Assembly (NCBI RefSeq): GCF_002161555.1
Contig: NZ_NFHZ01000008.1
Location: 1-64,000 of the forward strand
DNA: 64,000 nt
Source: Barnesiella sp. An55
Lineage (GTDB): Bacteria; Bacteroidota; Bacteroidia; Bacteroidales; Barnesiellaceae
Direction of reading: 5' to 3'
Shown: piece by piece, positions 10,195 to 27,665 of the stretch
Position numbering within the stretch: position 1 is the stretch's first letter
How the letters are laid out: the number at the start of each line of letters is the position of its first letter
The notes under the pieces: model-generated
What the model saw: only the letters and a program-made list of their open reading frames with translations
Database searches by the model: none
Told to the model about the DNA's origin: nothing
Program-made: the position numbers and the translations under genes

Positions 10195-10218
10195 TTATTT
10201 GAAAATTTTATAGTTATC

Positions 10219-13200
10219 CTATCTGTCAAATCCAAATTTATTCCATGCCTCCATAACCAAGCGTTTGGTACGGTACTCGCCCAGTTCTCGGAGTTCTCGC
10301 TCTTTGAGCACGCGGAATGTTTCGTTGATACAGCCTTTGCCACACACATCTTCAGGATCAAGAATATAGCGAAGGTCCTCAGTGGTAAGACCATATAAAT
10401 GAGCAAAGATGGCATCCAGTTCGGCTTGCCACACAGTTCGTTGCTCTTCATCCCATATGACTGGTTCTTCAGGTAGGTCATACTCTTCTGTGCACTCTTC
10501 TCGTAACTCTTCCATCCAACCATCCAAGTCATGATTGAACCAGCAAAGGCGTGCTACACGCTCCACAATTCCCTGTTCGTAACCCGATGAGGAAACCTGT
10601 TCGGGAGTAAGGACAGGGAATTGTTTCACAAAACTGATACTGGCATGACTTCCGCCAATTTTTTGTCTTGTTGCATAATCAAATACTAATGAGGACATCA
10701 TTCCCAAAAGCAGTGCTCCGGGCATAGTGCCACGCTCCACGAAGAGGAGCGTGGCACTATGCCCGACGCCGCAGGCGTCGGGAATAAGTGATATAACAAA
10801 TGTTCTATCATGTGTTGCATTTGTTATGTCTCGAAATCCAATAAGCCATTTATGTGACCACTTCCATATAATATTACCTTTGGCATCAGTTTTAATAAGT
10901 CTATTATCCATATCCTCTTTGGGAATCCAATACCATGGCATAATATTATGATTGGGATTTTTTAATTCATCAGATGTTGGCATAGCCATTTGTCTAGCAG
11001 GCTTCTCCTTTGTTCCTTCGTTGATCGTTCCGAAATGGTGATTATAATGCCAAATCATTTTTCCCTCATATAGCGGGTCATAAATTTGATTATTTAAAAG
11101 AAATTTATTCCCATTTAATTCTGCTCCTTTATTGATAAGTTGAGAGTAGGTCCGGAAAAGATAAGAAGCTGTAGACATATTAAACATACTGCCAAACTTG
11201 ACATCCCAAGGATTCTCATTTGTTGTATCGTTTATTATCACTTTACAACGGCGATAAATCTTTGTGGTAAGCATTGCATCACGACTGGTTCGAAATATCG
11301 GACATGTTTGGGTATTCGGATTCAGAAGTTTAAAATCTGTTGTTTTAAGTTGATAGATTCTTGTTGGATCGAGAAGATGATCCAGACGAGTAAGATAAAA
11401 TCCACCTGAAACCTCACGTGGATTATCTTGTTTTTGACCGACAGTAATAAGGCAAAATCTTGCTAGAGAAGCAATATCAAATATTTTTTCTCTATTTACG
11501 AAATCATATAATGATATTAATCGATTGTCATTAATAAGTCTTGCAAAGAAGTCTTTTGTTGAATCATTTACTGCAATACCTGTAGGCAATACTAATCCCC
11601 ATGCTTCTTTTGAACAATTTAAGCAATGTTCAGCAAATAATGGATATAAATCAATTTTTCCTATAGCAGTAAGAGGAAAACGTCCAGAATTTTTTAAATA
11701 ATTAGATTGACTCGATACAGCCTCACGAGCAGTTTTGTATTCAAGATATAAGGCTGGATTATTTTCTTTAAGTTGAGCAATTTTTTTATCTCGAGCCGCT
11801 TGGTTTGCAGCGTGGACAATGGAATCATCTTTGCCAACGAACCATTTTTCATCTTCCATTTGAAGTTTATCCCAAGGTGGATTGCCACACATCACATCAA
11901 ATCCGCCTCCATCAGCAAAGACCTCTGGAAACTCAACGCACCAGTGGAAGAAACGATTGGCCTGTGCCACTTCGTTAACTTCTTGCTTAAACGAATCAGG
12001 AAGAACCTGTAAACCTTCCATCTCCTCAGTTGAATAATCAAGATACTTTATCTCCTGTAAAGCATTATAGACTGTACGGGTATAGGGAATATTGAATGGG
12101 GTAAATGTCTCGGTTTCACTATCAAATTCAGAAGTCAAATCTGTTGCATGGAATTGTTTATAGAAACTATAAACATATATATCACAAGCTCGTCGTAGAC
12201 ATTCTACACGAGGAGATTGCATCAATTCTTCCCATTTTGATTGCTTGGTAAGCTCTTGTAAGAGTGAGTCTTCAGGTAAATCATTTATTTCTTTTACCTT
12301 ACCGGCCAGTCCGATTTGCTCGCTATCAATGCTTTGAATGGCAATATCCTGACTGAACAAGGTTACGGATAAGCCTATATTTTTCCCACTACGGACTAAA
12401 TCGACATCTTTGAGAGCCTGCTTGTTGAGCTCAATAATTCTTTTCTTGGTTTCTTTATTATCAGCAGTGAAGGCTTCTTTGGGAACTCCATCAAGGAGTA
12501 TGTCAAGGTTGGTCACTCCAACCACAGAGTTACCGCAACGAATATGATGGTCAAGGAAAGAAAGTGGTTTCCCAGCACAATAACCTTCAATCCAAAGCAC
12601 AACCTTACAAAGTTCTACAGCATCGGGATTATAGTCTACTGCATAGATGCACTTCTGAATTACTTCACGAAGCGCTTCACGATAGTCGAGCGAAGCTGGA
12701 TTGTCTTCACCAGTACGTAAGGTACATATATACCAGGCTAAAGTTCGAGCCATAGCCAAAATAATATGACCTGAACCACTAGCGGCGTCACATACTTTCA
12801 TGGAGAGTAGTGAACGAACTTTTTCTTCAATGGTCTGACATTTGGCAATACGCTCTTTAATTACCGGCTCCAAGGTTGTACGAATAAGACTTTGCACGAG
12901 ATCCGGACGGGTATAGTAGGAACTAGATGATTTCCGATCAAGACCTGCGCCAAAAGTAAAGTTCCACTCTGAGACGGATGTTCCCTGCATAATGATAGCA
13001 CGCATTTCAAGAATGCCCTCATATACTGACCCAAACTCTTCTACATCAAGAGATGAATAATTAATCTTTACCCGATTTTGCTTCTCGTCCCTAAACTCAT
13101 TTAGACAAGAGAAAGCAGCCAGAAGCTGTTTATTGGTAATCTGGCATTGACGTAAATAATGTAATGTCTCAGTCGCGAATAATACGCCTCCAAGAGGCTT

Positions 13201-14340
13201 TATCAAGAGTGGAGTTCCAAATGTTTCATCCTCAAAAAGTCGGAAAGAATCCATTAGTCCTTCCCATAAGTCGCAGTAGTGTTCATTGCGCAAATAGGGT
13301 AACTCAGACAAACCACGTAAGCGAGACACTGCATAATATTTTTTGTAGATGTCCTGGCAACGAACTTTTTGATCATAATCATTATCTGTATCCGGAGCAC
13401 CAATATTGTATACCAGATTGCGGTCTTCGATAATAAAGAGAAATAATAATCGGTAAATAAAATGAATCAGTTCTTTATTCAAAGTCTGTGCGTTTGCTTC
13501 ACCATTGATGACAGCCTGTCTGAATACTTCATTACCTGCACCTTTTCCACATACCACTGAGCGTCCCAGTATTTCCATTGCTTTTTGAACGGCATCACTT
13601 AACCCTGCACGAATGCGGTTACCGCTTTCAATAGAGCGATTGAACCATTGTTCCATGATACAGGCATCGTCCCCGCTGTGTGTGAAACGGGAAGAATGCA
13701 TCAGTCGGAACAACAAGCAGAATTCAGCATAATGATCTTCTTCGACCATACGACGTATGTCGAACTCAATGTATGTAAGTTTGACTAATTGTCCGGTGTT
13801 ACGAATAAGGCGTAATACTTGACCATTAGTTACAATGCCATATACATGTTCGGTATTATTTAGATAGTCAAGCATAGTAGCTTGAGGTGACTTTTGGCGG
13901 CGTTCACCTTTGATTCGCTGGTCGAGTGTACATTTGTCGAGAAGATCTAATTCTGCATCACCAGTTTTATCTCCGACTATAATAATTGGCATTTGGTCCA
14001 ATTCAGGACAAATATAAGGTATGTCGAACTTACGTTCGCCTACTTCAATTTGTGTAGGTTGATAATCTAACTGATAATCAAGACTTGAAAAGAACCGTTC
14101 CATGAGACGACGTACAGCTTTCGTTCCGTATGGGTCGCGAAGAGAGTTACGTTCAGAAAATAGTTTCCAATCGTTACGCAGACTGCTCCATGCATTATCA
14201 ATTTTGGCCGTGAGCGAAACATCAAGATTAAAATCTTGTTCACGGTTGCCTTGCATGGAAGATTCAGTCTCTATTTCATGTAAAATATCATCTGAGAGAA
14301 GATGGCCATATATATGTATAGAAGTATAATCCATATCCAA
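10219..14340 (-). CDS. N6-adenine DNA methyltransferase, DISARM DrmMI-like
   Basis: This 1373-aa protein belongs to the large Eco57I-like class of adenine methylases. SAM-binding motif I is DAASGSGHIILA near residue 517. The catalytic motif IV is MCGNPPWDKL near 818 (NPPW, adenine N6 type). The C-terminal part contains RQKIGGSHASISFVKQFPVL, typical of the target-recognition region. The 500-residue N-terminal region resembles those of PglX, DrmMI and type IIG enzymes, without a clear nuclease motif. It should methylate host DNA to mark self. It is next to an SNF2 helicase (9 bp gap), as in class 1 DISARM. An in-frame perfect palindrome lies near codons 1187-1208. Confidence 0.85.
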   Translation of the reverse strand: MDMDYTSIHIYGHLLSDDILHEIETESSMQGNREQDFNLDVSLTAKIDNAWSSLRNDWKLFSERNSLRDPYGTKAVRRLMERFFSSLDYQLDYQPTQIEVGERKFDIPYICPELDQMPIIIVGDKTGDAELDLLDKCTLDQRIKGERRQKSPQATMLDYLNNTEHVYGIVTNGQVLRLIRNTGQLVKLTYIEFDIRRMVEEDHYAEFCLLFRLMHSSRFTHSGDDACIMEQWFNRSIESGNRIRAGLSDAVQKAMEILGRSVVCGKGAGNEVFRQAVINGEANAQTLNKELIHFIYRLLFLFIIEDRNLVYNIGAPDTDNDYDQKVRCQDIYKKYYAVSRLRGLSELPYLRNEHYCDLWEGLMDSFRLFEDETFGTPLLIKPLGGVLFATETLHYLRQCQITNKQLLAAFSCLNEFRDEKQNRVKINYSSLDVEEFGSVYEGILEMRAIIMQGTSVSEWNFTFGAGLDRKSSSSYYTRPDLVQSLIRTTLEPVIKERIAKCQTIEEKVRSLLSMKVCDAASGSGHIILAMARTLAWYICTLRTGEDNPASLDYREALREVIQKCIYAVDYNPDAVELCKVVLWIEGYCAGKPLSFLDHHIRCGNSVVGVTNLDILLDGVPKEAFTADNKETKKRIIELNKQALKDVDLVRSGKNIGLSVTLFSQDIAIQSIDSEQIGLAGKVKEINDLPEDSLLQELTKQSKWEELMQSPRVECLRRACDIYVYSFYKQFHATDLTSEFDSETETFTPFNIPYTRTVYNALQEIKYLDYSTEEMEGLQVLPDSFKQEVNEVAQANRFFHWCVEFPEVFADGGGFDVMCGNPPWDKLQMEDEKWFVGKDDSIVHAANQAARDKKIAQLKENNPALYLEYKTAREAVSSQSNYLKNSGRFPLTAIGKIDLYPLFAEHCLNCSKEAWGLVLPTGIAVNDSTKDFFARLINDNRLISLYDFVNREKIFDIASLARFCLITVGQKQDNPREVSGGFYLTRLDHLLDPTRIYQLKTTDFKLLNPNTQTCPIFRTSRDAMLTTKIYRRCKVIINDTTNENPWDVKFGSMFNMSTASYLFRTYSQLINKGAELNGNKFLLNNQIYDPLYEGKMIWHYNHHFGTINEGTKEKPARQMAMPTSDELKNPNHNIMPWYWIPKEDMDNRLIKTDAKGNIIWKWSHKWLIGFRDITNATHDRTFVISLIPDACGVGHSATLLFVERGTMPGALLLGMMSSLVFDYATRQKIGGSHASISFVKQFPVLTPEQVSSSGYEQGIVERVARLCWFNHDLDGWMEELREECTEEYDLPEEPVIWDEEQRTVWQAELDAIFAHLYGLTTEDLRYILDPEDVCGKGCINETFRVLKERELRELGEYRTKRLVMEAWNKFGFDR
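10719..10782. repeat. Perfect 20-bp palindrome plus 9-bp hairpin inside the methylase coding sequence
   Basis: Arms 10719-10738 and 10746-10765 are exact inverse complements (core GGGCATAGTGCCACGCTCC) around a 7-base loop. They are followed directly by CCCGACGCC-GCA-GGCGTCGGG at 10762-10782. The segment is clearly GC-richer than the surrounding gene and stays in frame, encoding part of IPDACGVGHSATLLFVERG. Confidence 0.85.
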
Positions 14341-14349
14341 TAGTTTACT

Positions 14350-17229
14350 TTATAAATGTGATACTTTGGGTGTATAAACAAACGCAGCTATAACATCCAT
14401 GGGAAGAATTGGCTTTACTACCTGATATTCTGCTTCTGAAAGATACGTACGGTATCGTGCAAACGAACGTACCAGGTTATTTGCCCGTTCTGTGGCAATG
14501 TCGTCGGTGTGTAGGCGTAGTGTCGCTTCATTGTTAATCCATTCCAAACGGCGGTTGAAGATATTGCGTTGAGCAGCTAAGTCAATATCACCGGTTGGCT
14601 GTGAATCCAAAAATAGATTTTGGCATTCAGCCTCTGAAATGAAATCATGATTGTCTACTTTCCCCTTATACCCAAAGAATATCATTTCCTCACCAACCAA
14701 TTGATTATCGTTGTGTTTTGTCTCGCTAATTACAGATCGGACTCGCATAAGGAGTACGGTAGTAACCATATCAACCTTGTCTGTCTCTATAACCATTGCA
14801 CGGCAAGCTCCCAAGTTTCCGCCGTTGATTGTATCATTGACAACACTCCTTGAAAGATCTTCTACGAAAGTGTGATTACGTCCAATATACATGTAGTTTT
14901 TAGGAGTAGGCGAAGCAAATGAAATCCGCACTGTTCCTTTTTTATCTACCGTCCGTTGAAAGTAGGATTTCAAATTTTCTGGCAGTTCGATAAATTGGAA
15001 GGAATAGCACAGTGGAATACTATCCACTTTCACATTGATACCGGCATGTCGTAATTCTCCGATAACGAAATCCCTTGTATCGTAAATATCACCTATAACC
15101 TTTTTGGCTTCATTCAGACTTTCAATCAACCGGGTCGGATCCATTGCTTTCGTATTATGGGCAAAGTAGGTATGTGACTTCTTTTCAATTTCTACAGCTC
15201 GTTGAATACGTTTATCATGTTCTTCAACCGTTTCTGAAGCCCACTCCATATCAAAAAGAGTCGGCTGTTTAATAAATTCCTTTTTCGTGTCGAGTACAAT
15301 AATCTCTTCCATAATACTCTCCATAAGCGTAGAATCATTATCGGCAATTGGGATGTAAATACCTAATGATTTTCGAATCTGATTTTGCTTACGATAAAGT
15401 ACTTTCATGATGATTTTGTCGACAGGATTCGTGTCTTCATCAAAGAGCGTAAAAATCGCAACTTCCTTTTCAGTCTGTCCAAAGCGATCTATACGACCGT
15501 TACGCTGTTCCATACGATTAGGGTTCCATGGTAAATCATAATGAATAACACAATTAAAACCCGTTTGAAGATTTACTCCTTCTGAAAGACAATCAGTACA
15601 TACTAATACATGGCGAGGTGCTTTAGCTAATTCTTCAATCTTCATTTTACGGTCTTCATCCGTAAGTCGACTGGTTATCACTTCAATCGATACATCTTTG
15701 TATTTTTTATTGCCAGATAAATGTTTGGCTATATAGTCTTTACAATATTCTGCTGTCTGTATATATTGACAAAAGACTATTGGAGCATATCCAGAATTTA
15801 AAGCAAATTCAACATTCTTTGCCAATTCTGTAACTTTGCTATCTTGTCCCTTTTCTTTGATTTCTCGAAGGATTGAAATGAATGAACGTAACTTGTTCTT
15901 CTCACTATTTGATGATTCCTCGTATGATTCAGGAATTACATCATCATTGAAAAGCCCATCTTTTAATGCATCATTAAATTTATAAATCTTGTCGTTATCT
16001 TCTGCTACATTTTCAGAATCATTAGAGCGTTTGTTTATTTTGTTCTGTAGCATGCTAATACCTGCATCTGGACTTGACATCACACCTCTGATAAGGGCCA
16101 ATAGATCCCAGTAAATATAGCGTTGTTTTATTTTACCTAAAGAACGTGCAGCTTTGACACCTTCACGTACATAGTCTATAATGTTCATAAGGAGAGCATG
16201 GTACTGAGCACTTAATTCATATTTGGCATCAAATTGAACGCGAGTAGGAAATATCATATCATTTCCTACATAAGGTTTAACATCTGCACGACGGCGTTGG
16301 ATAAAATAATGTGACAGTTCTTCACGTTGGCGAGCATCTTCCAATGTGAAATGTTCAAACTCAGGTTTTAAGAGCCCGATAAGTGATTGAAATTCCTCAT
16401 TATTTCCACTATGAGGAGTTGCAGTAAGAAGTACTATATGCCTTTCTGATTTAGACAAATCAGAAAGTAAAGCATGGCGTAGCTGCTGACTCTTGTTGGC
16501 ACCTTTGGGCTTAGCGCAAGTATGTGCTTCGTCCACTATGATAAATTCCGGACAATGTTGTAGAAACATTGGCTTTCGGTCTGAAGACTTAATATAGTCT
16601 ATAGAAATGATTTGGAAGGGTATATCGCGGAACACATTTTGATTGGCACGCATATTCTTTTCCAAACGGCTTATTGTGCTGGAGCGGATAATTTCGGCTT
16701 CCAGCCCAAATTTATCGCGAATTTCATTCTGCCATTGCTCGCATAGGTGTGGCAAACATATAATAGCAAAACGTTGAATCTCTTTGCGATCCAAAAGTTC
16801 TTTAGCAATTAATAAAGATTCCAAAGTCTTACCTATACCTACATCATCTGAAATCAGCAAACGTATAACCTGGTGTTTCAGGGCCAATATGAGGGGAACC
16901 ATTTGGTAGGGGCGAGGTTCAAAAGAAAGTCGTCCTAAACAATGGAATGGTCCTGCTATGTCACGAAATGATAATCGGCACGCATTATAAAGAATACGTG
17001 CTGCCTCAGGATAACTATTCGCTCCCACATCATCAGATGAGGGCTTGCGAAAATCATATGAGCAGACCATTGAATTTAGTTGGTCTTTATATAATGGCTT
17101 ATACAGACCGATAACTTCGGCATCTGTACCACCTAAAGGTTTTATAATTAATATATCTTTATCTGATGACTGTTGAACCACCCATGGACGTGAGCGAAAT
17201 TCAACAAGTGTTCCTGTTTTATATTCCAT
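14350..17229 (-). CDS. SNF2-family helicase, DISARM DrmD-like
   Basis: The protein has the SNF2/RapA-type motor: DDVGIGKTLESLL near 123-135, FIIVDEAHTCAK near 228, LLTATPHSGNNEEFQSLIGL, and the C-terminal lobe with CTDCLSEGVNLQTG and QRNGRIDRFGQ near 577. Such proteins translocate on DNA. In class 1 DISARM the homologue DrmD works next to the adenine methylase. I take the start at 17229 (MEYKTGTLVEFRSRPWVV), 6 bp after the stop of the preceding gene, although the frame is open for 25 more codons. Length is about 960 aa. The C-terminal third has no motif I can name. Assignment to SNF2 is secure; the DrmD name rests on gene neighbourhood. Confidence 0.85.
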   Translation of the reverse strand: MEYKTGTLVEFRSRPWVVQQSSDKDILIIKPLGGTDAEVIGLYKPLYKDQLNSMVCSYDFRKPSSDDVGANSYPEAARILYNACRLSFRDIAGPFHCLGRLSFEPRPYQMVPLILALKHQVIRLLISDDVGIGKTLESLLIAKELLDRKEIQRFAIICLPHLCEQWQNEIRDKFGLEAEIIRSSTISRLEKNMRANQNVFRDIPFQIISIDYIKSSDRKPMFLQHCPEFIIVDEAHTCAKPKGANKSQQLRHALLSDLSKSERHIVLLTATPHSGNNEEFQSLIGLLKPEFEHFTLEDARQREELSHYFIQRRRADVKPYVGNDMIFPTRVQFDAKYELSAQYHALLMNIIDYVREGVKAARSLGKIKQRYIYWDLLALIRGVMSSPDAGISMLQNKINKRSNDSENVAEDNDKIYKFNDALKDGLFNDDVIPESYEESSNSEKNKLRSFISILREIKEKGQDSKVTELAKNVEFALNSGYAPIVFCQYIQTAEYCKDYIAKHLSGNKKYKDVSIEVITSRLTDEDRKMKIEELAKAPRHVLVCTDCLSEGVNLQTGFNCVIHYDLPWNPNRMEQRNGRIDRFGQTEKEVAIFTLFDEDTNPVDKIIMKVLYRKQNQIRKSLGIYIPIADNDSTLMESIMEEIIVLDTKKEFIKQPTLFDMEWASETVEEHDKRIQRAVEIEKKSHTYFAHNTKAMDPTRLIESLNEAKKVIGDIYDTRDFVIGELRHAGINVKVDSIPLCYSFQFIELPENLKSYFQRTVDKKGTVRISFASPTPKNYMYIGRNHTFVEDLSRSVVNDTINGGNLGACRAMVIETDKVDMVTTVLLMRVRSVISETKHNDNQLVGEEMIFFGYKGKVDNHDFISEAECQNLFLDSQPTGDIDLAAQRNIFNRRLEWINNEATLRLHTDDIATERANNLVRSFARYRTYLSEAEYQVVKPILPMDVIAAFVYTPKVSHL

Positions 17230-17234
17230 CTCAA

Positions 17235-20200
17235 TTAACTTATTGGAGTAAATATGTCTGAATGTGCAGATACGAACTCTGCCAATGGCGTTTTGTAGTA
17301 CCAAACGATGACTACATAGCCGGCATCTTCAAGTACTTCTCTTTTCTTTCTATCATCTTCCTGCACTTCTGGTAAATCATGGGGTGTACCATCACAAAAT
17401 ACCACGATTCTATCACCATATATGAAGTCTGGTTGCACATAATATTTTTCTGGAAACATTGGCTGGGCTTTATCTGGTAGACGAAGCTTATGCTCATATA
17501 AATATTTTAAGAATTCGTATTCTGTGCTGCTATTATGGTCACGGGTTGCTTCGAGTTCCTCATACTGTTTATCGTAGCTTTGAAGTTGGCCAGCATTGCG
17601 CACTTCTATATCAGCATTCATCATGATAGATAATGTATTATATATTTTTCTAATATCAATAAGTTGATGATATGGCTGATTGTAGTAATTAAGCAAATTA
17701 GTATAATCTGCAGGAATTAATTTGGCACGCTCTTCCTCAGAGAGTGGTGTAGTTCTTCCATAACAGATTTCATAAGCTCGTTTTACTACTGCGTGATAAG
17801 ATGCAGGCTCTAATACTAAGCGTTCCAGTACACCTAATGAACCTTCTGCATTTTCGTAAATGAGAAGATTGGGGACTTTTTCATCTCCCATTACATCGGC
17901 TCCTATTTCACTACCTTCTATTTGAAAGACATCTTCTATTGCTTGCTTAAATGCATACAAGAATGTACGAACAGCTCCTTTATCTGATAAAGCAAGCGTA
18001 TCAAGAGGCTGAATATAAATAGCATTTGCAGTTGTCTCTGTAAATAACTTGACGTACTTGATACTGTTTGGCTCTTCCGGATGCTGTTGTTGTTTTTGCA
18101 TATGAATTGCCATACGTTCTGCACTAATCCAATCACCTGTTTTTGTATCAAAGGCAAAGCCATTTGCATTGTCGTCATTTTTTGATTCCAGAATATAAGT
18201 CAAGCGGCATGAGGGGATGTAACGAATATTGGCTAAATGAGTTCCATTATTAGTCTTTAGTTCGCACATGCTTATTGCACGAGTATCATCTGAAGAGAAA
18301 TAGGTTTTTAATTGATAGAATTTTCGACTTCGTTCTTCTTCCTGACACGTAATTTTTTCGCTTTCTTGTGCTACCATGTCTTGTAATTGTATACAATAGC
18401 CTGGTATCATTTTAGAGACACCATCAAGACTCTCTCCTGTGATTATATCTGTATGATGTGAAGCATTCTCTTGATTTTTGTAAATTACTCCCGTTTTGGG
18501 ATTGTAGAAAAATTTGTTAGGCGTTACTTCTCCCGTTAACATCATGCGAGATACACGGAATTTGCCACCATCATTGTAGATGATATTTTGAGGACCAAAT
18601 TCTGTTAATGCCAACGATTTTGCCCGGCTAAGATATTCTACCTTATCGCTATTTTTATATTGCAGTAAAGCTCTCTGAGGTAATTTTGTAAAATTATATC
18701 CTGGCAAGAATCCTTCGCTGGCAAAATATCTGTAAGGGTAGAATTCGTTCTCTTCCGCATTTTTCCCTTGATTTTGTCCGAGAAGCATATCGCGAAGCTC
18801 GATTCCTCGTCTTTCCTTTAATAGTGCCTCTTTCTTTTCCTTGGAATTTTCACCATATATATTATTTCTGGTAACAGTTTGTGCTTCTTCAATCTGCTGT
18901 TGAGCTAATTTATATAAGCTACGCCAGCGGTTGAGAGCTTTGTCAAAATCATATAAATAACTATCCAAAATCCAGTCCATCCAACTGTCAGAGAACCAAT
19001 ATGGCATTTCTTTGTCGATTCTACTAGACAAATAATAGTCTGATATAGCTTGCTTAAAAATGGCTTTAATCTCTTGTTTTCGTTCTTTTGAAAGTTGGAG
19101 ATGATGAACAACTTCGGGTTTTAACGTGATGTTATTTGCATTACTATAATCAACCAAATCTGCAATCCCGTTAGATAATTGAGGAATGGGGCATATGGAT
19201 AATATAGTAGAATGCAAATGGGTCGAGAATAATTCTTCGTTAACCAATTCCATACGTGGTGCTTTTACCTCACCACTCACCATCTTTTCAGGATGACGAA
19301 GATAATAATTTTCGTGTGAGTTACGTGTACGGCAGTAAGTATAGATTAAAGCTGCTTGACCGCTACGTCCTGCACGACCAGCACGTTGAGTATAATTTGC
19401 TGGAGTAGGTGGAACATTGCGCATACCCACTATAGATAGGTCTTTAATGTCAATACCAAGTTCCATGGTAGGTGAACAGTATAGTACAGGAAACTCTCCA
19501 TTACGGAATTGCTGTTCTCGTTTTTCACGTTCATCTTTAGGAACCTGACCTGTATGATCTTTCGCTTCCAAATTTATATTGGAAAGCGGAATATTTTTAT
19601 AGAAGTTCTGAAAATAGTTATTAGGGGTATAAACAATTTCATCCCCAATAGTCCTAATTCTTGTAAGATCTGTTCTCACATTTTTTTCATCACCTTTTTC
19701 CCATAAAATGCTTGAATAAAATAATTGGTAAGCTCCGTCATTTTCTTGAATGTAATTACCCAATGCAGCAAATAAAGATTGCATATAGGAAACATAATCT
19801 TCTGAATTACGGATTGTTGCAGTACCTCCATTTATATTCAAGAAATCGCGAACAAAAAATGCCAATTTAGAGCGATAGCCAGCGACCTCTTTTCCAAAAG
19901 CCTTGCGCTTATTCTGTGGTTTTACAAAGCATAATGCATGTGAGGCAGTAATTCTGTCGTTATCGTCTAATGTCCATGGACTTTTTAGATTTTCTCTAAC
20001 TTGTTTCTCTATGTCTTTTGCAGCCTCTTCTGTTCTATCATCAGAATATATGCACAATTTGTGACGCATATAATCCAATATTTGGATGATGAAGCGTTCC
20101 TTATTTTCATCAGATAATCCGTCTAGTTCAGGTATATCATAGAGACGGTCGCAACCATTCTCACCTGTAATTTCGTCATGGAGATATTCATAATTAATCT

Positions 20201-22421
20201 TCAATAGTGCACATTCTTCAAGATTGGGCATGTTTACTTGCCAGTTTCCAGCCAGATCATCGTAGATGATAGTTCCTAAATATCTTTCCATTACATTTTC
20301 TACTTTCTTTGCACGTCCTCCAGTCCAATTGGGGAATCGGAAATAATCGTTATGAGAAAGATGAAGGTGCTTAAATACGAGTCTAGCAATTCTATCACTA
20401 CCAATAGGCTCATCTGCTTCTTTTACAGCATTCCAAATGGCAGAGCGTATTTTACCTATACGTATAAAATCATTAAAATGGCCAGATTGTAGGGCAGCAT
20501 CCTGACGAGCATCCACAAAAGTCATGACTTTACAGTCTGCAGGTTCTACATTTGCATTTCTCATTTTTATGACATTCTCATATGAAAGTACGGTTGTTGC
20601 TGTACTTCTACCTTCACTACCAATTTTTGATAACTTAGACCATTCTTTACTTGATCCTGAATAGATAGCTTTTGCCGTTGGATCATACTTCAGTGGACTT
20701 GGCACATATATTCCTTCAATACACTCATTATTAACATCTTGAACTTCTGAAAGGTTCCCATATATTGTAAAATAAACTCTTTTTGGGAAACGATCTAAAT
20801 AAGTTTTCTTAAATTTTCGATTCCCATTTTTATCTATAGTGTACCAGTCCTCTGGAATATCATCTGAATTTGGATCTAATAAGAAATCTTCAACAGATTC
20901 ATTCTTATGGGGAACGATAATATAACCGTTGTTTATAGTAAATTCTTGCTCTTCTTCATCTAATTCATTACGCTCATCGTAATTTCTGGGTAGAAGAGTG
21001 TCGTTTATAATTTTTACAGAATACAATTCATGTCCGCTTAAACGACTGAACATGATAGGATAGTATTTTACTTTATGCTCATTATCAGACAATTCTTCAC
21101 AATATAATTTTTCATCAACTGTAATGTAACGGTTTTCAGGATTTCCTAATGTTGCATATACATTTCCGGTCTGAGGAATAAATTGATGGATTTTATAAGG
21201 TAATAGATTAGCCCCTTGATTAATATTAATATCATTACACCAGTTTAATATCTCAATAATGTGCTGAATACAAATATCTATTGAGACTTTTCTATCAATA
21301 TAATTATGTAATTGTTCAGCTATTTTCCTAATAGAACAAGGAGCTCCTCTGAAGTACTTTTGTTCCTGTTTGTCAAAGCTCAGCGCAATGTTCTGCTCAA
21401 TCCAATTGGCTGTAGGATGATTACGGAGCATATCAGCATTTAAATCTGACGGAATAGGAGAATTTATAGCTGATAGTATATCCTCTTTAGAATAATTTGT
21501 ATTGGATAAGCCAACCTTCAAAGTTTCATCTACAACTTGATTAATATCATAGGAGCTGCCAAAAATGCAAGAAGCAACTTCTGCAACCTTTTGACGCTGT
21601 TCTTTATAGCTAAGTTTATCATCTGCAACCATTGTGGCAGATGTTCCAAAACATAACACTGGCTTTTTAGCTTGTGCCTTTATTCGCCTAATCAAAAATG
21701 AGACATCACTACCTTGCATACCACGATAGGTGTGCAATTCGTCAAATATCAAATAATGAAGATTCTCAAGGAAACAATCTCTGAGCCGTTTTTCATCGCC
21801 AGCTCGAGTCATTAAAAGTTCCAGCATCATATAGTTGGTTAATATGATGTTGGGAGGCGTAGTTTGTATGCGTTCTCTAACTTGTGAATCTTCTTGTCCT
21901 GTATATTTGGCAAATGTAAACGGGCATTCTTTTCCTGTTGCATTTTCATACTGTTGACGATATCTAGCCAACTCTTCGGATTGAGAGTTGATGAGCGCAT
22001 TCATAGGATATACAATAATGGCTATTGTTTTATTGATAGAATCTTCTTGATGTTGTAGTATATAATTGAAGATGGTAGCCATAAATGTACGAGATTTGCC
22101 AGAACCTGTACCTGAGGTTACAATAAATTCTTTATCTTGACATCCTAATTCTATCGCCTCCTGTTGGTGTTTATAGAAGGTATTCTTAAAAAATAATCCT
22201 AAGTCTTTATGAATAGGGAAGCCATTTTTGATCATTTGACTGACATCGATTCCAGACGCAAAATTAGGATTAAACTGAATTAAGGCATCCGGCCACAATT
22301 TTTCACTTTTAATGGCCTCACTAACCTCTTTTCTTATCCGTTCGTCTTTTATGGAAACGAAACTACCGATATATTCTTTATAGCTTCGTTTTATTTCTTT
22401 GTATATATCTAATATATTCAT
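17235..22421 (-). CDS. Giant DEAD/H helicase with DUF1998-like region and C-terminal nuclease fold (DrmA-DrmB-like fusion)
   Basis: The 1728-aa protein starts with an SF2 helicase: [11 protein letters not shown] near 103, [16 protein letters not shown] near 225. A second lobe has [34 protein letters not shown] near 1045. Near 1500 there is a DUF1998/MZB-like segment ([18 protein letters not shown]), but only one cysteine follows (EICYG), so the usual zinc-binding cluster is missing. The last 120 residues ([10 protein letters not shown], then [16 protein letters not shown] and [14 protein letters not shown]) look like a Vsr/DUF559-type nuclease fold. DISARM carries the helicase (DrmA) and DUF1998 protein (DrmB) as separate genes; here they seem joined. 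DruE of Druantia is a similar giant helicase and is the main alternative. Confidence 0.75.
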
Positions 22422-22438
22422 ATTTGTATATAATCGTT

Positions 22439-22651
22439 CTATTGTTTTGAGCTTATTAACAGTTCTCGAATATCGACTTCTAATATTTGAGATATTCTTA
22501 ATAATGTTTCAAGACTTGGTTGGGAAGTGTTTGTGCACCATTTGGACACAGTAGCAGGATCTTTCTCCAATTGCTTAGCTAGCCATTTATTGGTTCGCTT
22601 TTTCTCCACAAGCACAACCTTGATGCGGTTTATGTCTTTTTCTTTTTCCAT
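22439..22651 (-). CDS. Small XRE-family regulator heading the defence operon
   Basis: The 70-aa protein is almost entirely one helix-turn-helix: [20 protein letters not shown] followed by [21 protein letters not shown]. It is the first gene of the minus-strand operon, 17 bp ahead of the giant helicase gene, with a good -7 box at 22673-22681. Such regulators control many restriction-modification operons, often to delay nuclease expression until host DNA is methylated. That role here is inference. Family assignment is sure. Confidence 0.85.
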
Positions 22652-22672
22652 AAGGATTTTCTTTCGTTCTAT

Positions 22673-22681
22673 GCAAAGATA
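22673..22681 (-). promoter_or_regulatory. -7 promoter box of the defence operon
   Basis: On the minus strand the bases read TATCTTTGC, a full match to TAnnTTTG, 21 bp before the ATG of the small HTH gene. It should drive the whole block from 22651 down to 5340, since no internal terminator is evident. Confidence 0.65.
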
Positions 22682-22798
22682 AGAAAGCCTATCTATTTTT
22701 CATCATTTCAATAGGACTATTTGTAATATAAATTGCGAATTAGTTCAATATTATAGCTATTTATAGATAACATAATTTCTTTTTGGAATAGAAATCTG

Positions 22799-22807
22799 TA
22801 TCTTTGT
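22799..22807 (+). promoter_or_regulatory. -7 promoter box of the divergent membrane protein gene
   Basis: TATCTTTGT on the plus strand fits the -7 consensus. A TTTTG at 22781-22785 is nearer than the usual 20 bp. The box argues against a start at 22821 and for the ATG at 22869. Confidence 0.5.
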
Positions 22808-22868
22808 AGGTAACAATGTTTTGATATGGGCAATTGCTGATAGAAATAGAAAAATAGATATTAATTAT

Positions 22869-23684
22869 ATGGAACAAATAATAACAACAACAGTTGTAAC
22901 TTTAATATCAGGAGCTATCGGTGCCATAATTGGTACTTATGGCGGAGCGTTATTTGCTGCAAAAAGACAAGAAAAACATATAAAAGAACTTAGACAAGTC
23001 GCTATAAAAGCTTTAAAAATATTCCAAAAGTATGCTCGTAATAGACAAACTTACGATGTTGCAGCTTCTGAATTCAATAATGCATTAAGTATTGCTGAGA
23101 AAAGAGTTTTTATTGTTGCATTACATAAGTTGGGTATCCCTATTCTGGCAACTCCAGATTCTAAGTTTGACATACAAAATATTGTATTTGAAAAAAGAGA
23201 AATAGATAAAGACGAAATAGAAGCTATTATCAGCCAAATACAATTAGGACATTGTGATCAGTTATTTTACATTGAACCTGATAATTATTTTAGTGAAAAC
23301 ATTCGTTTAAAAACATTACGTTATATTGCCAAAAGATGGGTAAGAGAAGTTTTTGGTAAAAGCAAACTTGATCGTTCTCAGAATCCTATTGTTATAGTTT
23401 ATCCTACTAATTGGTGGCTAGGTTATACATTAGGGGAAAGGTTAGGAATTGCGGTTTTAAGAGAACGTATATCTTTAGACGAATATTTTGATGAACAAGG
23501 CTTGCCTAAGGAAGATTCTATTGAGCGTTTAATAACAGACATAGATCGTGGTCTATGGGATAGTAGCTTCTTTTGGGATATAGAAAATTATCGAAGCGTA
23601 ACTGCAACAAGTTCTCTTAATAATATGATCTCTCAATTATTAAACAATAGTCAGAACAGTACGATTCAGAAAAAAGAGAGATAA
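22869..23684 (+). CDS. Membrane-anchored protein of unknown function next to the defence operon
   Basis: Starting at the ATG at 22869, the protein has 271 residues. The N-terminus is a hydrophobic helix (VVTLISGAIGAIIGTYGGAL) ending in a basic stretch, so a single-pass anchor with a cytoplasmic domain is likely. The rest is soluble and charged. It contains PIVIVYPTNWWLGYTLGERL and ends in a polar tail (QNSTIQKKER). I recognise no family. The frame is open upstream to a TTG at 22821, but the -7 box at 22799 leaves little leader for that start. It is divergent from the regulator of the large operon and could be a linked accessory gene or independent cargo. Confidence 0.65.
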   Translation: MEQIITTTVVTLISGAIGAIIGTYGGALFAAKRQEKHIKELRQVAIKALKIFQKYARNRQTYDVAASEFNNALSIAEKRVFIVALHKLGIPILATPDSKFDIQNIVFEKREIDKDEIEAIISQIQLGHCDQLFYIEPDNYFSENIRLKTLRYIAKRWVREVFGKSKLDRSQNPIVIVYPTNWWLGYTLGERLGIAVLRERISLDEYFDEQGLPKEDSIERLITDIDRGLWDSSFFWDIENYRSVTATSSLNNMISQLLNNSQNSTIQKKER

Positions 23685-23709
23685 AAGACAAAAAGTTTGT
23701 AAAAAAAGC

Positions 23710-23734
23710 AACAGAGAGGATTTTCCTCTCTGTT
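23710..23734. terminator. Bidirectional terminator hairpin
   Basis: A perfect 11-bp stem (AACAGAGAGGA / TCCTCTCTGTT) with a TTT loop, flanked by A runs on one side and A/T on the other. It lies between the convergent genes ending at 23684 and 23745. Confidence 0.8.
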
Positions 23735-23744
23735 ACGAAAAAAG

Positions 23745-24149
23745 TTACACCTCTAACTCCTTCAACGGCAACCCATAATTATATTGTCCGAAAAATCCTC
23801 TGTGAATAAGTTTCAAACCAAGGATCTGATAATACTTGTAATCGTCATCTTCGGTGCAGAGGTATTTGTAACCGTAACGTGGGGCGTACTCCTTAAAGAA
23901 TCGGGCAAGGTCTTTCAGGTTTTCCTGCTGGTTTCGTTTGAAGTTGCTGCGCACAATGATAATGCTCCAGTCGGGGATGCTGCCAACGCCGCAACTATAT
24001 TCCCAGAAACGGATGTATAAATCCATTTCGCCCACATGGACAGAAACACAAATGCCATTGGCGTTGTGCATGACGGAACAACAGTTTCTGTAACCGAATC
24101 TCTCACACAAATAGAGATTGAAATCATAAATAAAATCGGAATAGTTCAT
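23745..24149 (-). CDS. Hypothetical 134-aa protein downstream of the relaxase
   Basis: The protein is small and globular. It is rich in aromatic residues and cysteine (LCERFGYRNCC, RFWEYSCGVGSIPDWS, ARFFKEYAPRYGYKYL), with no signal peptide or membrane helix. It follows the relaxase gene on the same strand after 35 bp and is probably cargo of the mobilizable element. I do not recognise a family. Confidence 0.6.
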   Translation of the reverse strand: MNYSDFIYDFNLYLCERFGYRNCCSVMHNANGICVSVHVGEMDLYIRFWEYSCGVGSIPDWSIIIVRSNFKRNQQENLKDLARFFKEYAPRYGYKYLCTEDDDYKYYQILGLKLIHRGFFGQYNYGLPLKELEV

Positions 24150-24184
24150 AATAATTTGAATTTTGATGGTTAATAAAAAATTGA

Positions 24185-25123
24185 TTATAGACTGAAACCT
24201 CGCTTGCGTTTCGGTTTCTTTTTCTTCTTTTTAAGCCGGTTGGCCTGTATTGCTTCCTCCGTATCATAATCCGTAGGAGAGAGCGTGAACAATCCCACAC
24301 TGATGCCGGAATGATTCTCCTGCTGGTATTCATGACGAGGTTCCTCGCGTATGGTTTCTGCCTGTGCCTGACGCTGGTTCATGGTAGCAGAAAGAGCGTT
24401 ATATCTCAGCTCCTGGTCGATGTTCAGGAAACTGAACTGGCGGTCAATCTTGGAACCGCTAAAGGTCAGTTGGTCACATGTGAACTTGACACCTTGCATC
24501 TCTCCGGTCGTGCGACTTTGCTTCCATTGCGTATCAATTCCGTACTTCCGTAAGGCCACTCGCAGCTCACTCCAGCTTCGGGCGTTCGGAACCTCTCGTT
24601 TTAAGGCATGATAGATAAAATACTTTACCTTGTCATGATGACGTAACCGCATGAAATTGACATGCTCTTTTCCTTCGGCAAAATGCAAACAGTAACGGGC
24701 TGTCAGCATCTTGCAGACCTTTTCATTCCGGTAACGGTCGTTCTTGTCGCTGATAGTGCGGCCGTCATTATCCACCCGGTTGTAAACGATATGACAATGC
24801 GGATGATCACGATCAGTATGCCTGGCGATGATGAACTGCGTGTTCTCGATTCCCATCAATTTCATGTAGTCATGGGCGATCTTTAGCATCAGCCCATCAT
24901 CGTCACGGATGCGGTCCCCGTCCTCTGCGGAGAAGCTTAATGATATATGGCCGACCTTGTTCTTGACCTTGTCATTCAGTAAAGTCTGCAACTCGAATTG
25001 CTCCGCTATTTCTTCGGGCGAACCGTAGACACCAACTGCCTTCAGCAGGCGTGACTTATCTTCTTTCAGCACATAGTTTATGCACCCGGAAAACGACGTG
25101 CCTTTGACAATCTTACCTATCAT
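24185..25123 (-). CDS. Relaxase/mobilization nuclease (MobB-type)
   Basis: The 312-aa protein begins MIGKIVKGTSFSGCINYVL, typical of Bacteroidetes relaxases (Pfam relaxase family). It carries the three-histidine metal motif in ARHTDRDHPHCHIVYNRV near 120-135. It nicks one strand at oriT and stays covalently attached to lead it into a recipient. The C-terminus is strongly basic (KKKKKKPKRKRG). The start overlaps the end of the MobC-like gene by 11 bases, which implies coupled translation. No transfer genes are present, so it would need a helper conjugative element. Confidence 0.92.
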   Translation of the reverse strand: MIGKIVKGTSFSGCINYVLKEDKSRLLKAVGVYGSPEEIAEQFELQTLLNDKVKNKVGHISLSFSAEDGDRIRDDDGLMLKIAHDYMKLMGIENTQFIIARHTDRDHPHCHIVYNRVDNDGRTISDKNDRYRNEKVCKMLTARYCLHFAEGKEHVNFMRLRHHDKVKYFIYHALKREVPNARSWSELRVALRKYGIDTQWKQSRTTGEMQGVKFTCDQLTFSGSKIDRQFSFLNIDQELRYNALSATMNQRQAQAETIREEPRHEYQQENHSGISVGLFTLSPTDYDTEEAIQANRLKKKKKKPKRKRGFSL

Positions 25124-25421
25124 CCTTGAGCTGTTTTATGAGTTGTGAAATCTGTTGAACGGCGGTACTGCACTCATCGGCCACACGATAAAAACCGTAA
25201 GCATTGGCTCGTCTGGCAAGCTGGTTCAGGTTCGTGCTTTCGCCAATCAGTTTTCGGATGATGTCTAGATTTTCTCTCGTAATTCGTTCGCGCACCGTAC
25301 CGTGTTCGATGAGTGAACGCACTACTTCGCTTTGGCTGCGTTTACTGCGTCGGCTAAGTGCTCTGAGCCAGCCGAATTGTTCGTCTGTAAGACGGATTGT
25401 AACTGTATTTTTCTTGTCCAT
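25113..25421 (-). CDS. Plasmid mobilization relaxosome protein (MobA/MobC-like)
   Basis: The 102-aa protein has an N-terminal ribbon-helix-helix (VTIRLTDEQFGWLRAL, then SQSEVVRSLIEHG). A C-terminal helical part has the pattern of Bacteroidetes MobC-like proteins (IGESTNLNQLARRANAYGF). It binds oriT DNA and brings the relaxase to the nick site. The candidate oriT lies directly upstream at 25466-25527, and the relaxase gene overlaps its 3' end. Confidence 0.88.
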   Translation of the reverse strand: MDKKNTVTIRLTDEQFGWLRALSRRSKRSQSEVVRSLIEHGTVRERITRENLDIIRKLIGESTNLNQLARRANAYGFYRVADECSTAVQQISQLIKQLKDDR

Positions 25422-25465
25422 AATATTTGTTTTTGAGATTAATAATTGTGACCATCGGGAGCCGT

Positions 25466-25527
25466 CTCACCGTCTTTTGAGGTGAGCAAGTGGCCGGGAA
25501 ATGTAATACACCGGCATAAACTTGCTC
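25466..25527. other. Candidate oriT with nested inverted repeats
   Basis: Just upstream of the mob genes, CTCACC (25466-25471) pairs with GGTGAG (25481-25486). GAGCAAGT (25484-25491) plus GCCGG (25493-25497) pair with CCGGC (25511-25515) plus ACTTGCTC (25520-25527). Position next to mobC and relaxase genes, with nested inverted repeats, is what an oriT looks like. The exact nick site cannot be read with certainty. Confidence 0.55.
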
Positions 25528-25560
25528 CAGTGAAAAAGAAGTGAATCAGACATCTGACAG

Positions 25561-26634
25561 TCATCGTTTGAAAAGTCCTTTCCGAGTATGTTGAACCGTT
25601 GCTGAAAGCGGTGCTTTCTCCACATTGACAAGCTGTAAATCGAAAGTTTCGACCAGCGTTTTCAAGGCCGGATTCAACGTGATAAGACGATTGAAAATAG
25701 CCTCCTTTGTCTCTTCTCTCAGCAGAAAATCGGCGATGTCATAACCCGCATCACGTTCTTCTTTTGTTGCGTTTCTTTCCATAAAATCGAAGAGAGAAAC
25801 CTCTATTCCCAGGCTCCGGATCATCTCCATTTTACTGTTCCAATAGTCGGTTGCACCCAGGTCAGGGAAGAGCAGGACACGTCGGTTTCTCAATACGCTC
25901 ATGGCGTCCCGATTGAAGGCTCCGTTCTTTCCGCCCGAAGCAATCCAGAGGTATTGCGGCAAATAGAAGCTGGAAATCAAAGCGCTTTTCTCACTCTCTA
26001 CAAGGGCAACCGGACGCTGCTGGTCGGAGGACAAAAGGTGCTCACCAAACAAACATTGCCGGAGATTGAAATTCTCTTTCTTCAGAAGGGAATGTACCCA
26101 CGTGATGTAGTTGTGCGGCTCTTTAATCCGTCTCCCGTTTTCGGGATTGTAGAGCATCACTTTTCCGGTTCGTACCCGTCCGGAAATATCTACCTGCCAG
26201 AAGACTGTTGCTCCCGGCCAATGCTTTGAGGTTCCCACATGGTAGCGCAACATCAGCTCTTCGGTAGCCTCCTGTCCGAAATGAAAGCTCAGGAACTGAA
26301 ACAGCTTGTTCGTGTGATATAGCTTCAAGGACTGCCTCATGATTTCCGGCTCAATGAAGGATGGTGCAGGAGGCAGACTGATGCGTGGCTTTGACATCGG
26401 CACAAACTCTTCGTTCAATCGCTCTTTGGCAATCGGATTCTCGTCAAAATACATTTTGGGCGTATAGTTATAGCCGCACTTTTGTTCATGGTTGCATCGC
26501 CCTACATAATCAGGAAAGCTGATTTGCTTCTCCGTATCGATGTATTTGGCGAAACAACTTTTGCGGTGGCAGTTCGGGCATGTGTGCCGGGTGCTGACAC
26601 CTTTATATGGTTCTAATGTGAATCTGTAGTTCAT
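25561..26634 (-). CDS. Toprim primase-like protein (DUF6371-like) of a mobilizable element
   Basis: I choose the start at 26634 (MNYRFTLEPYKGV, 357 aa), because the longer frame would begin inside a perfect palindrome. The N-terminus has a zinc-ribbon (HTCPNCHRKSC ... GRCNHEQKCGY). The middle has a toprim-like segment (VALVESEKSALIS, WIASGGKNGAF, VLLFPDLGATDYW). Proteins of this kind are found between mob genes and DUF3987 genes in Bacteroidetes elements. They probably help replicate the element after transfer. The assignment is by motif order and neighbours. Confidence 0.75.
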   Translation of the reverse strand: MNYRFTLEPYKGVSTRHTCPNCHRKSCFAKYIDTEKQISFPDYVGRCNHEQKCGYNYTPKMYFDENPIAKERLNEEFVPMSKPRISLPPAPSFIEPEIMRQSLKLYHTNKLFQFLSFHFGQEATEELMLRYHVGTSKHWPGATVFWQVDISGRVRTGKVMLYNPENGRRIKEPHNYITWVHSLLKKENFNLRQCLFGEHLLSSDQQRPVALVESEKSALISSFYLPQYLWIASGGKNGAFNRDAMSVLRNRRVLLFPDLGATDYWNSKMEMIRSLGIEVSLFDFMERNATKEERDAGYDIADFLLREETKEAIFNRLITLNPALKTLVETFDLQLVNVEKAPLSATVQHTRKGLFKR

Positions 26635-26652
26635 TTTTCTTTCTGTTTGGAT

Positions 26653-26713
26653 GTTACTATGCACATTTTCGCAACTTCACAAACCCCTCGGTTGCGAAAA
26701 TGTGCATAGTAAC
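26653..26713. repeat. Perfect 23-bp inverted repeat between the primase-like and DUF3987 genes
   Basis: Arms 26653-26675 and 26691-26713 are exact inverse complements (GTTACTATGCACATTTTCGC and 3 more bases) around a 15-base spacer. On the minus strand it starts 4 bp after the DUF3987 stop codon and ends 18 bp before the chosen primase start. There is no T-run, so it is not a typical terminator. A protein-binding or replication site is possible. Confidence 0.9.
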
Positions 26714-26717
26714 AGGT

Positions 26718-27665
26718 TTATTTACTGTATTCTCCATGATTCTCTTTTCTGAATAATGTTCCGATGTGGCGTTTTAGAAACATCTTGAAAGCATGCTCCT
26801 TCATCCCGTAGCTTTCAGCAATACCGATACCTTCTGCCGTTGTAAATCTCTGAGGCAGATTCAGGTAGATATTGCGGTGCAATTCGCTCAACTGTTCCTG
26901 ACTGACAGCAGTCTGCACTTTTACGGCTGTTGTCCGAAAATACTCAGTTAACAGGATGGCACGATTCACGCTTTCAAGGTCAATCGTATGCTTGTCGCAC
27001 TCTCCACAAGTCCATCGGGCAAGTTGGATAATCAGACAAAACCGGATAATGTAGATTTCCAGTTTGCAGTAAATACCTACCAAAGCATCATTGGTTTCCA
27101 AATCACATTGGCGGGCATTTTCATGCTGCCAGCAGTAAAGCCGTTGCTTGGCTTCTTCATCGAATGGCAGGCATTGAGACTGCAACTCATTATTCTCGTC
27201 ATGCGGACAATCTTGTGCGATCAGCTTATCGATAATCTGTTGCCACTGGATTTCCAGTTCTTCAGGAGTTTCCCGGTCATTCCATCTGCTTTTCAAGACA
27301 GATTCAGGCATCACGAAAAGAATACGATCAATAAAACCGTTACTCGAACGCTCGCCCTTGACCAGTTCGCCCAGAATTTTCTTTTGGATGGTACCGATAA
27401 CGGAGATATAGGGACGTCTGATAAAAATGGAACTTTGCGTACTCTTGCGATCGGAAATCGTAGGCTTGGCATTGAACACCTTTGCATAAAAAAAGAACAT
27501 AAAACAGAATGGCAGATAGAATATCACTAGAGAAAGCACATGTGAGGTGATTCCCTTGGCGGAGGCATCATAGTTGCCAAAATAGAAAATCAAGTCAATC
27601 ATACACTCGCTCATGAAAGAGATAAGCACAGCGTATAAAAGCAACCCAAAGGTGACAAGTACCAT
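26718..27665 (-). pseudogene. DUF3987 helicase/primase gene with its 5' part lost and replaced by a membrane segment
   Basis: From about residue 62 (AKPTISDRKSTQSSIFIRRP, then YISVIGTIQKKILGELVKGE, GFIDRILFVMPE) to the C-terminus, this matches the end of DUF3987 proteins, which are normally larger and partner the toprim gene in Bacteroidetes mobile elements. The first 60 residues are instead two hydrophobic helices (TFGLLLYAVLISFM, LSLVIFYLPFCFMFFFY) unlike any DUF3987 protein I know. The reading frame is intact through the join, near 27,480. It is probably a deletion fusion and may no longer work in replication. The neighbour downstream is the toprim gene, in the usual order. Confidence 0.65.

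Follow-up and report, generated by a model that had tools for sequence, protein, structure and literature searches.

A clade of ARMADA type I helicase-nucleases in which the ligands at three zinc sites appear to have been replaced

We analysed a stretch of 64,000 nucleotides from Barnesiella sp. An55 (contig NZ_NFHZ01000008.1, positions 1 to 64,000), hereafter called the window, and in it a gene encoding a helicase of 1728 residues. We consider it probable that this open reading frame (ORF) encodes an ARMADA type I protein, the YprA-family helicase-nuclease of that anti-phage system, and that it belongs to a clade in which the ligands of three structural zinc sites have been lost in place. The family, the operon and the nuclease were already known and it is the zinc-less ARMADA clade that looks new: a zinc-less ARMADA is not mentioned in the parts consulted of the 2025 preprint by Bell et al. 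(PMC12458937), and in its main text the word "cysteine" occurs once and "Bacteroid" nowhere.

17235..22421, minus strand: probable YprA-family helicase-nuclease of ARMADA type I, 1728 aa, ATG start (ORF; DruE models; PDB 9tu7)

Replacement of the zinc ligands

The original prediction, made from the DNA alone, had described a degenerate DUF1998 zinc site followed by one cysteine, and this was borne out. After the segment of residues 1521-1535 there is a single cysteine, C1553, the next one being C1676 inside VFCDG. The Pfam model of this domain, MZB, matches residues 1489-1552 only (17.4 bits for a cut-off of 24.2) and the match ends where the cysteines should begin; MZB was matched in 24 of 25 whole relatives, the window protein included, at E ≤ 0.05. 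As judged from the alignment, the loss goes beyond what had been claimed, since it spans three sites and the whole clade.

For this comparison, 59 YprA proteins (helicase ORFs of at least 1500 aa, with 15 duplicate ORFs merged) were aligned. For the counts of zinc ligands, 7 far rows were set aside, which left 52 ARMADA-I rows, 20 zinc-bearing and 32 of the window clade. Zinc-bearing rows contain 4-7 CxxC motifs each (mean 5.3, chance 0.32) and clade rows 0-1 (mean 0.09, chance 0.16). The helicase of Deinococcus radiodurans (L053) is one of the zinc-bearing relatives. Eleven columns are Cys in 20/20 zinc-bearing rows, and from their spacing we infer three zinc sites: A (459/462/580/583), B (1307/1310/1325/1328) and C, the DUF1998 cluster (1568/1572/1575). 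Site C may have as its fourth ligand the residue at column 1554, a His in 20/20 zinc-bearing rows. The corresponding positions in the window are as follows.

21036..21047, minus strand: former zinc site A, first half, S459 and S462 (Cys in 20/20 zinc-bearing rows; Cys pair in 9tu7 and 9wae)
20673..20684, minus strand: former zinc site A, second half, D580 and A583 (alignment; Cys pair in 9wae)
18438..18503, minus strand: former zinc site B, N1307, T1310, D1325 and T1328 (alignment)
17697..17762, minus strand: former zinc site C (DUF1998/MZB), Y1554, L1568, D1572 and N1575 (alignment)

Throughout the 32 clade rows, site A has S at 459 (32), S or T at 462 (28 and 4), D at 580 (32) and S, A, C or G at 583 (15, 11, 4 and 2). 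At site B we observed S 22, N 6, A 2, L 1 and C 1 at 1307, T 19, S 9 and A 4 at 1310, D 19 and C 13 at 1325, and T 23 and S 9 at 1328. Site C shows mainly L (16) and K (7), plus others, at 1568, S 24, D 5, T 2 and N 1 at 1572, and D 25 and N 7 at 1575; none of the three MZB columns is Cys in any clade row (0/32). From the zinc-bearing rows to the clade, the motif FCRxCG is found as FSRx[ST]G and CxxC(G) mostly as DPT. Outside the cysteines the proteins are well preserved: the 189 non-Cys columns that are invariant in the 20 zinc-bearing rows are retained at 90% on average in 30 clade rows (L020 and L021 were also left out of this comparison), nine of them at less than 20%. In the same 30 rows, retention does not exceed 13% in ten of the eleven Cys columns and reaches 43% in the other. 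CxxC counts in the SNF2 and methylase partner proteins are uninformative as a zinc control, because they amount to 0-1 in both the zinc-bearing and the zinc-less groups.

The absence of the ligands, by itself, suggests that the clade helicase may work without the three zincs. One could argue instead that the sites decayed under relaxed selection and that the function of these regions is reduced in the clade, which we regard as rather unlikely. Sites B and C do vary more than site A within the clade and, although such zinc modules are described as conserved, loss of the DUF1998 cysteines has been reported for Dpd (Bell et al., main text, PMC12458937). However, the replacements at site A are kept (S459, D580 and S/T462, each in 32/32 rows), as are most of the other 189 invariant positions. 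It is less probable still that the sites bind another metal, Mg or Ca, via the new Ser/Thr/Asp oxygens: an Asp is frequently gained beside hydroxyls at each site (D580 in 32/32, D1325 in 19/32 and D1575 in 25/32 rows), but about one carboxylate per site makes a weak site for a hard metal.

A tree was computed from 610 helicase columns, Cys-rich columns being excluded. All zinc-less rows lie on one side of a single branch, with a support of 91 in the quick 59-row tree and of 100/100 in a careful tree of 50 rows (L058, L059, L096, L097, L020, L021, L078, L084 and L073 left out). Loss is the simpler direction, because the outgroup rows Natrinema L095, Allomeiothermus L100 and G321 are all zinc-bearing, and the zinc ligands would thus have been lost apparently once, in one clade, with retention of the nuclease. 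Five Bacteroidota helicases fetched later are all zinc-bearing (CxxC 4-9), one of them split over two ORFs, and none is intermediate; among all 59 rows, a single one, the far row L058 with 3 CxxC motifs, falls between 1 and 4. The helicase of L129 (G691) is split over two ORFs, through either decay or sequencing error.

The window helicase sits inside the ARMADA-I clade of 52 rows, the outgroup of which includes the type II-ordered operon L100. We file it as a derived variant of ARMADA I rather than as a plain member, since in the tree the zinc-less clade is nested within ARMADA I. The main text of PMC12458937 gives ARMADA type I conserved CxxC zinc modules and a four-Cys DUF1998 cluster; in the window protein, by contrast, all three sites are replaced. 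These modules stand outside the operon-based definition of the type, and the window helicase does not carry them.

As sampled, the clade comprises Bacteroidota, two Burkholderiaceae plasmids and one viral contig (L068), the sampling beyond Bacteroidota consisting of plasmids and viral contigs. The helicase was matched at E ≤ 1e-40 in 12 of 393 genomes of the order and in 30 of 385 genomes of the phylum, both counts including the window's own genome and partial matches. A single-protein scan of genomes yielded 4 loci with identities of 82-100%. Three scans of viral contigs yielded 7, 6 and 7 loci, some of the contigs recurring. Genome G718 holds two helicases of the ARMADA lineage, one zinc-bearing (L126, G718:C4, CxxC 9) and one zinc-less (L075, G718:C1).

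The probable C-terminal nuclease domain

17238..17537, minus strand: probable Vsr/DUF559-type nuclease domain, residues 1629-1728, with E1634, D1665, D1677, H1681 and D1690 (Pfam, profile, alignment, fold)

From sequence comparison and a predicted structure, the C-terminal domain is very likely a nuclease of the Vsr/DUF559 type, in agreement with the restriction-endonuclease fold originally proposed for it. A Pfam search of the whole protein places DUF559 on residues 1627-1706 with 16.2 bits; like that of MZB, this match falls under the Pfam cut-off (20.6). When the domain was searched in 25 aligned relatives, window included, DUF559 was matched in 21/25, MTES_1575 in 13/25 and Vsr in 2/25 at E ≤ 0.1, and a profile of these 25 sequences found the endonuclease-like protein 3hrl as first match in the PDB (E 0.0055). 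We also modelled residues 1596-1728 alone from eight alignment rows (mean predicted local distance difference test score, pLDDT, 87). By VIA-align, the model resembles I-Bth0305I (Z 9.2, 2.8 Å over 89 residues), Vsr bound to DNA (Z 8.4, 2.7 Å over 92 residues), 3hrl (Z 7.7) and Vsr alone (Z 7.3). TnsA (Z 6.4) and VRR_NUC (Z 6.1) were discarded as nuclease types since their scores are lower than those of Vsr and I-Bth0305I. The likeness to these last two concerns the fold of the C-terminal 100 residues; the window domain is instead fused to a helicase, and a mismatch or homing-site specificity is not implied.

Conserved E, D and K residues had been expected in homologues. The acidic residues E1634, D1665 (in QPDFIY, which begins at residue 1663), D1677 and D1690 are indeed conserved, but there is no conserved K in the domain across the aligned homologues, and the set includes the conserved H1681 instead. 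Such an E/D/H set with H1681 and without K fits a Vsr/EDxHD-type nuclease. All five residues are kept in 31/32 clade rows, the remaining row (L013) ending earlier. Among the zinc-bearing ARMADA-I rows, 19 could be evaluated and 15 of these keep all five; a further one, L073, runs off its locus. In L013 (G035) a TAG lies within the nuclease domain region, through either decay or sequencing error.

A Vsr-type nuclease at the C-terminus of an ARMADA helicase is already published in the main text of Bell et al. (PMC12458937), where the mutants concern the helicase and methylase motifs and not this domain. The same text predicts inactivated Vsr domains in Druantia I and II, and one might therefore see in the window domain an inactive, DNA-binding relic of a nuclease. 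The lack of a conserved K and the residues lost in four evaluable zinc-bearing rows would fit such a relic, but we hold it to be improbable, E1634, D1665, D1677, H1681 and D1690 being intact in nearly all clade rows, that of the window included.

Operon and family assignment

14350..17304, minus strand: SNF2/RapA-like helicase, BrxHII/DrmD/DpdE-like (PADLOC DpdE 3.5e-156, DrmD 2.4e-84; SNF2 Pfam)
10219..14340, minus strand: Eco57I/DrmMI-like adenine-specific DNA methylase, 1373 aa (PF07669 E 2.6e-19; DrmMI 1e-65)
21627..22172, minus strand: RecA1/DEAD domain of the 1728-aa helicase, residues 84-265, Walker A K109 by sequence (PF00270 E 1.3e-23)
19359..19580, minus strand: RecA2/Helicase_C of the same protein, residues 948-1021 (PF00271 E 8.3e-16)
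17619..18695, minus strand: OB-CON-DUF1998 canopy of the same protein, about residues 1243-1601 (structure model of 1075-1728)

The 1728-aa helicase is the first gene of an operon followed by an SNF2 gene and an adenine methylase gene, all on the same strand. The true SNF2 start is probably the ATG at 17229, because the listed TTG start overlaps the helicase gene and the homologues align from about residue 26. The methylase fits the DrmMI model strongly and PglX weakly (E 0.0003). We assigned the system to ARMADA type I because the YprA-SNF2-methylase set and its order match the published definition (Bell et al., main text, PMC12458937), according to which the gene order is generally that of the window and the YprA protein has at its C-terminus a Vsr-type nuclease predicted to be active; a BrxA-like helical insertion following RecA1 is a further listed feature of the type. 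Within the window clade, SNF2 adjoins the helicase in 29/29 mapped loci and the methylase is present in 28/29, the locus without it stopping at the contig end; other ORFs lie between SNF2 and methylase in five of the 29. Next to relatives in Caballeronia, Paraburkholderia, Deinococcus and Rhodococcus, the annotation shows the identical three-gene order. Extra genes intervene in Chlorohelix, and one in Rhodococcus qingshengii; in cyanobacteria the SNF2 and methylase genes come first.

DruE models are the top PADLOC matches of the helicase (E 4.1e-75, 251.6 bits), and its closest solved structures by sequence are 9tu7 (E 1.7e-44), 9wae and MrfA 6znp. The canopy, in the model of residues 1075-1728, resembles MrfA (Z 11.7) and DISARM DrmB 7s9v_B (Z 10.7). 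It has the fold in common with these two proteins, but in neither was a nuclease domain matched, and the window protein has lost the zinc cluster. The match of LuxS (Z about 8) overlaps that of the canopy but involves fewer aligned residues than the MrfA match, and we read it as a sheet in common.

Druantia DruE is alike in its helicase lineage and in having helicase and canopy in one piece. However, Druantia membership needs DruE with DruH, or DruABCD, or DruM/F/G, and no Druantia model other than DruE is among the PADLOC matches listed for nine window proteins. Type III DruE, as described in the text of PMC13192584, also differs from the window protein by its PLD nucleases and four zinc clusters. 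The original prediction had proposed that a built-in nuclease could make DrmC unnecessary. A DISARM variant with a nuclease added to its DrmA in the place of DrmC is highly improbable, since, although the SNF2 and methylase neighbours fit the DrmD and DrmMI models, DISARM needs separate DrmA and DrmB, which divide helicase and canopy between them, and a DrmC PLD nuclease, whereas the window has both in one protein, which scores only 43.2 bits with DrmA, and neither DrmB nor DrmC is among those listed matches of the nine proteins scanned. What stands of that proposal is the built-in nuclease; its DISARM setting does not. The absence of DrmC from ARMADA I is already published (PMC12458937, main text).

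Several observations weigh against the assignment of the window protein to a zinc-less clade of ARMADA type I helicase-nucleases. Cys persists in the clade at columns 1325 (13/32), 583 (4/32) and 1307 (1/32). Searched alone, the window's C-terminal domain reaches 20.0 bits with DUF559, just under the cut-off; Foldseek alone gave no significant nuclease match for the nuclease model (best E 0.24); and three mitoribosomal chains (Z 8.6, 7.9 and 7.3) rank amid the nuclease matches of VIA-align. Four of the 19 evaluable zinc-bearing rows (L027, L030, L093 and L094) have lost some of the nuclease residues, and so the nuclease is not always needed. As to the operon, the zinc-bearing Bacteroidota loci L122, L123 and L124 have no SNF2 match in the fetched stretch, where L122 and L124 also lack the methylase and L123 has the methylase alone. 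Finally, a phage challenge of ARMADA type I was not found in the parts of PMC12458937 consulted, the published test being that of a type II system.

Proposed mechanism

By analogy, the system most likely works in the manner of restriction: the methylase would mark self DNA and the YprA helicase-nuclease, together with the SNF2 motor, would destroy phage DNA. The methylase would mark the host DNA, and the SNF2 and YprA motors would engage phage DNA that is unmarked or contains single strands. The YprA protein would thread the DNA through its RecA core beneath the MrfA-like canopy and its C-terminal Vsr-type nuclease would cut it. In the clade, hydrogen-bonded Ser/Thr/Asp probably take the place of zinc in holding the former knuckles. 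ARMADA type II protects cells, which remain viable, and requires its helicase and methylase motifs (PMC12458937, main text). DruE has a preference for DNA with 3' tails and, in vitro, cleaves long DNA, but via PLD domains (PMC13192584).

A hallmark ascribed to defensive YprA helicases is their zinc modules, and four zinc clusters are reported near the DNA channel of the solved DruE (Wu et al., text of PMC13192584). A natural clade devoid of these modules, with helicase, nuclease and operon in place, suggests that the zinc is structural and replaceable, and supplies natural zinc-site replacements to study. We tentatively put forward that this mostly Bacteroidota branch of ARMADA might be a zinc-independent immune machine, in which Ser/Thr/Asp networks, conserved at site A, replaced three zinc sites in what looks like a single event, and which thereby goes on defending under zinc scarcity, e.g. 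in animal guts; we hold this to be less likely than not. If the zinc loss were adaptive, anti-phage defence would be linked to metal limitation. Zinc-free ribosomal protein paralogues, described as existing in a zinc-binding form and in a version predicted not to bind zinc, offer a works-like analogy, but they are not homologous to the window helicase.

Neighbouring genes

A probably spurious ORF of 113 aa (10191-10532) overlaps the end of the methylase gene. The gene after the ARMADA methylase varies between loci, encoding a PIN-like protein, KAP NTPase, CHAT-TPR protein, UvrD helicase, deaminase, GmrSD or SMC/DUF2326 protein (window 8110-10194, L021, L112, L114, L120, L041, L039, L025, L026 and L093), and this position is possibly a slot for exchangeable defence genes. 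In L114 (16160-18241), a UvrD-type helicase follows a type I ARMADA methylase, and its N-terminus, RelE-like by eye, recalls the type II ArmD.

In the window, this position has a gene for a 694-aa protein (8110-10194, minus strand) with PIN-like acidic motifs (YLDTN..., ISSDQ) that are kept in three further relatives from Bacteroidales. A coiled-coil-like stretch comes after these motifs, and the C-terminus is hydrophobic. The PIN assignment was made by eye, and no family was matched in Pfam or PADLOC. Its relatives occur in 3 of 383 other Bacteroidales genomes, none among the 12 genomes with a helicase match. A further gene (5340-8054, minus strand) encodes a 904-aa SF1 helicase that resembles UPF1 and has a nuclease-like DUF2726 domain at its C-terminus (PF10881 E 1.2e-14). 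Both genes were weighed as possible parts of the system but set aside, the post-methylase gene differing among relatives. Two neighbouring GmrSD/DUF262-type genes lie at 851-4656 on the plus strand.

A stretch of 17.3 kb (10221-27480), covering the helicase, SNF2, the methylase and a MobB-like relaxase region (24185-25123), is common with Bacteroides mediterraneensis (L021) at 97% DNA identity, the downstream gene being different, and was likely transferred recently.

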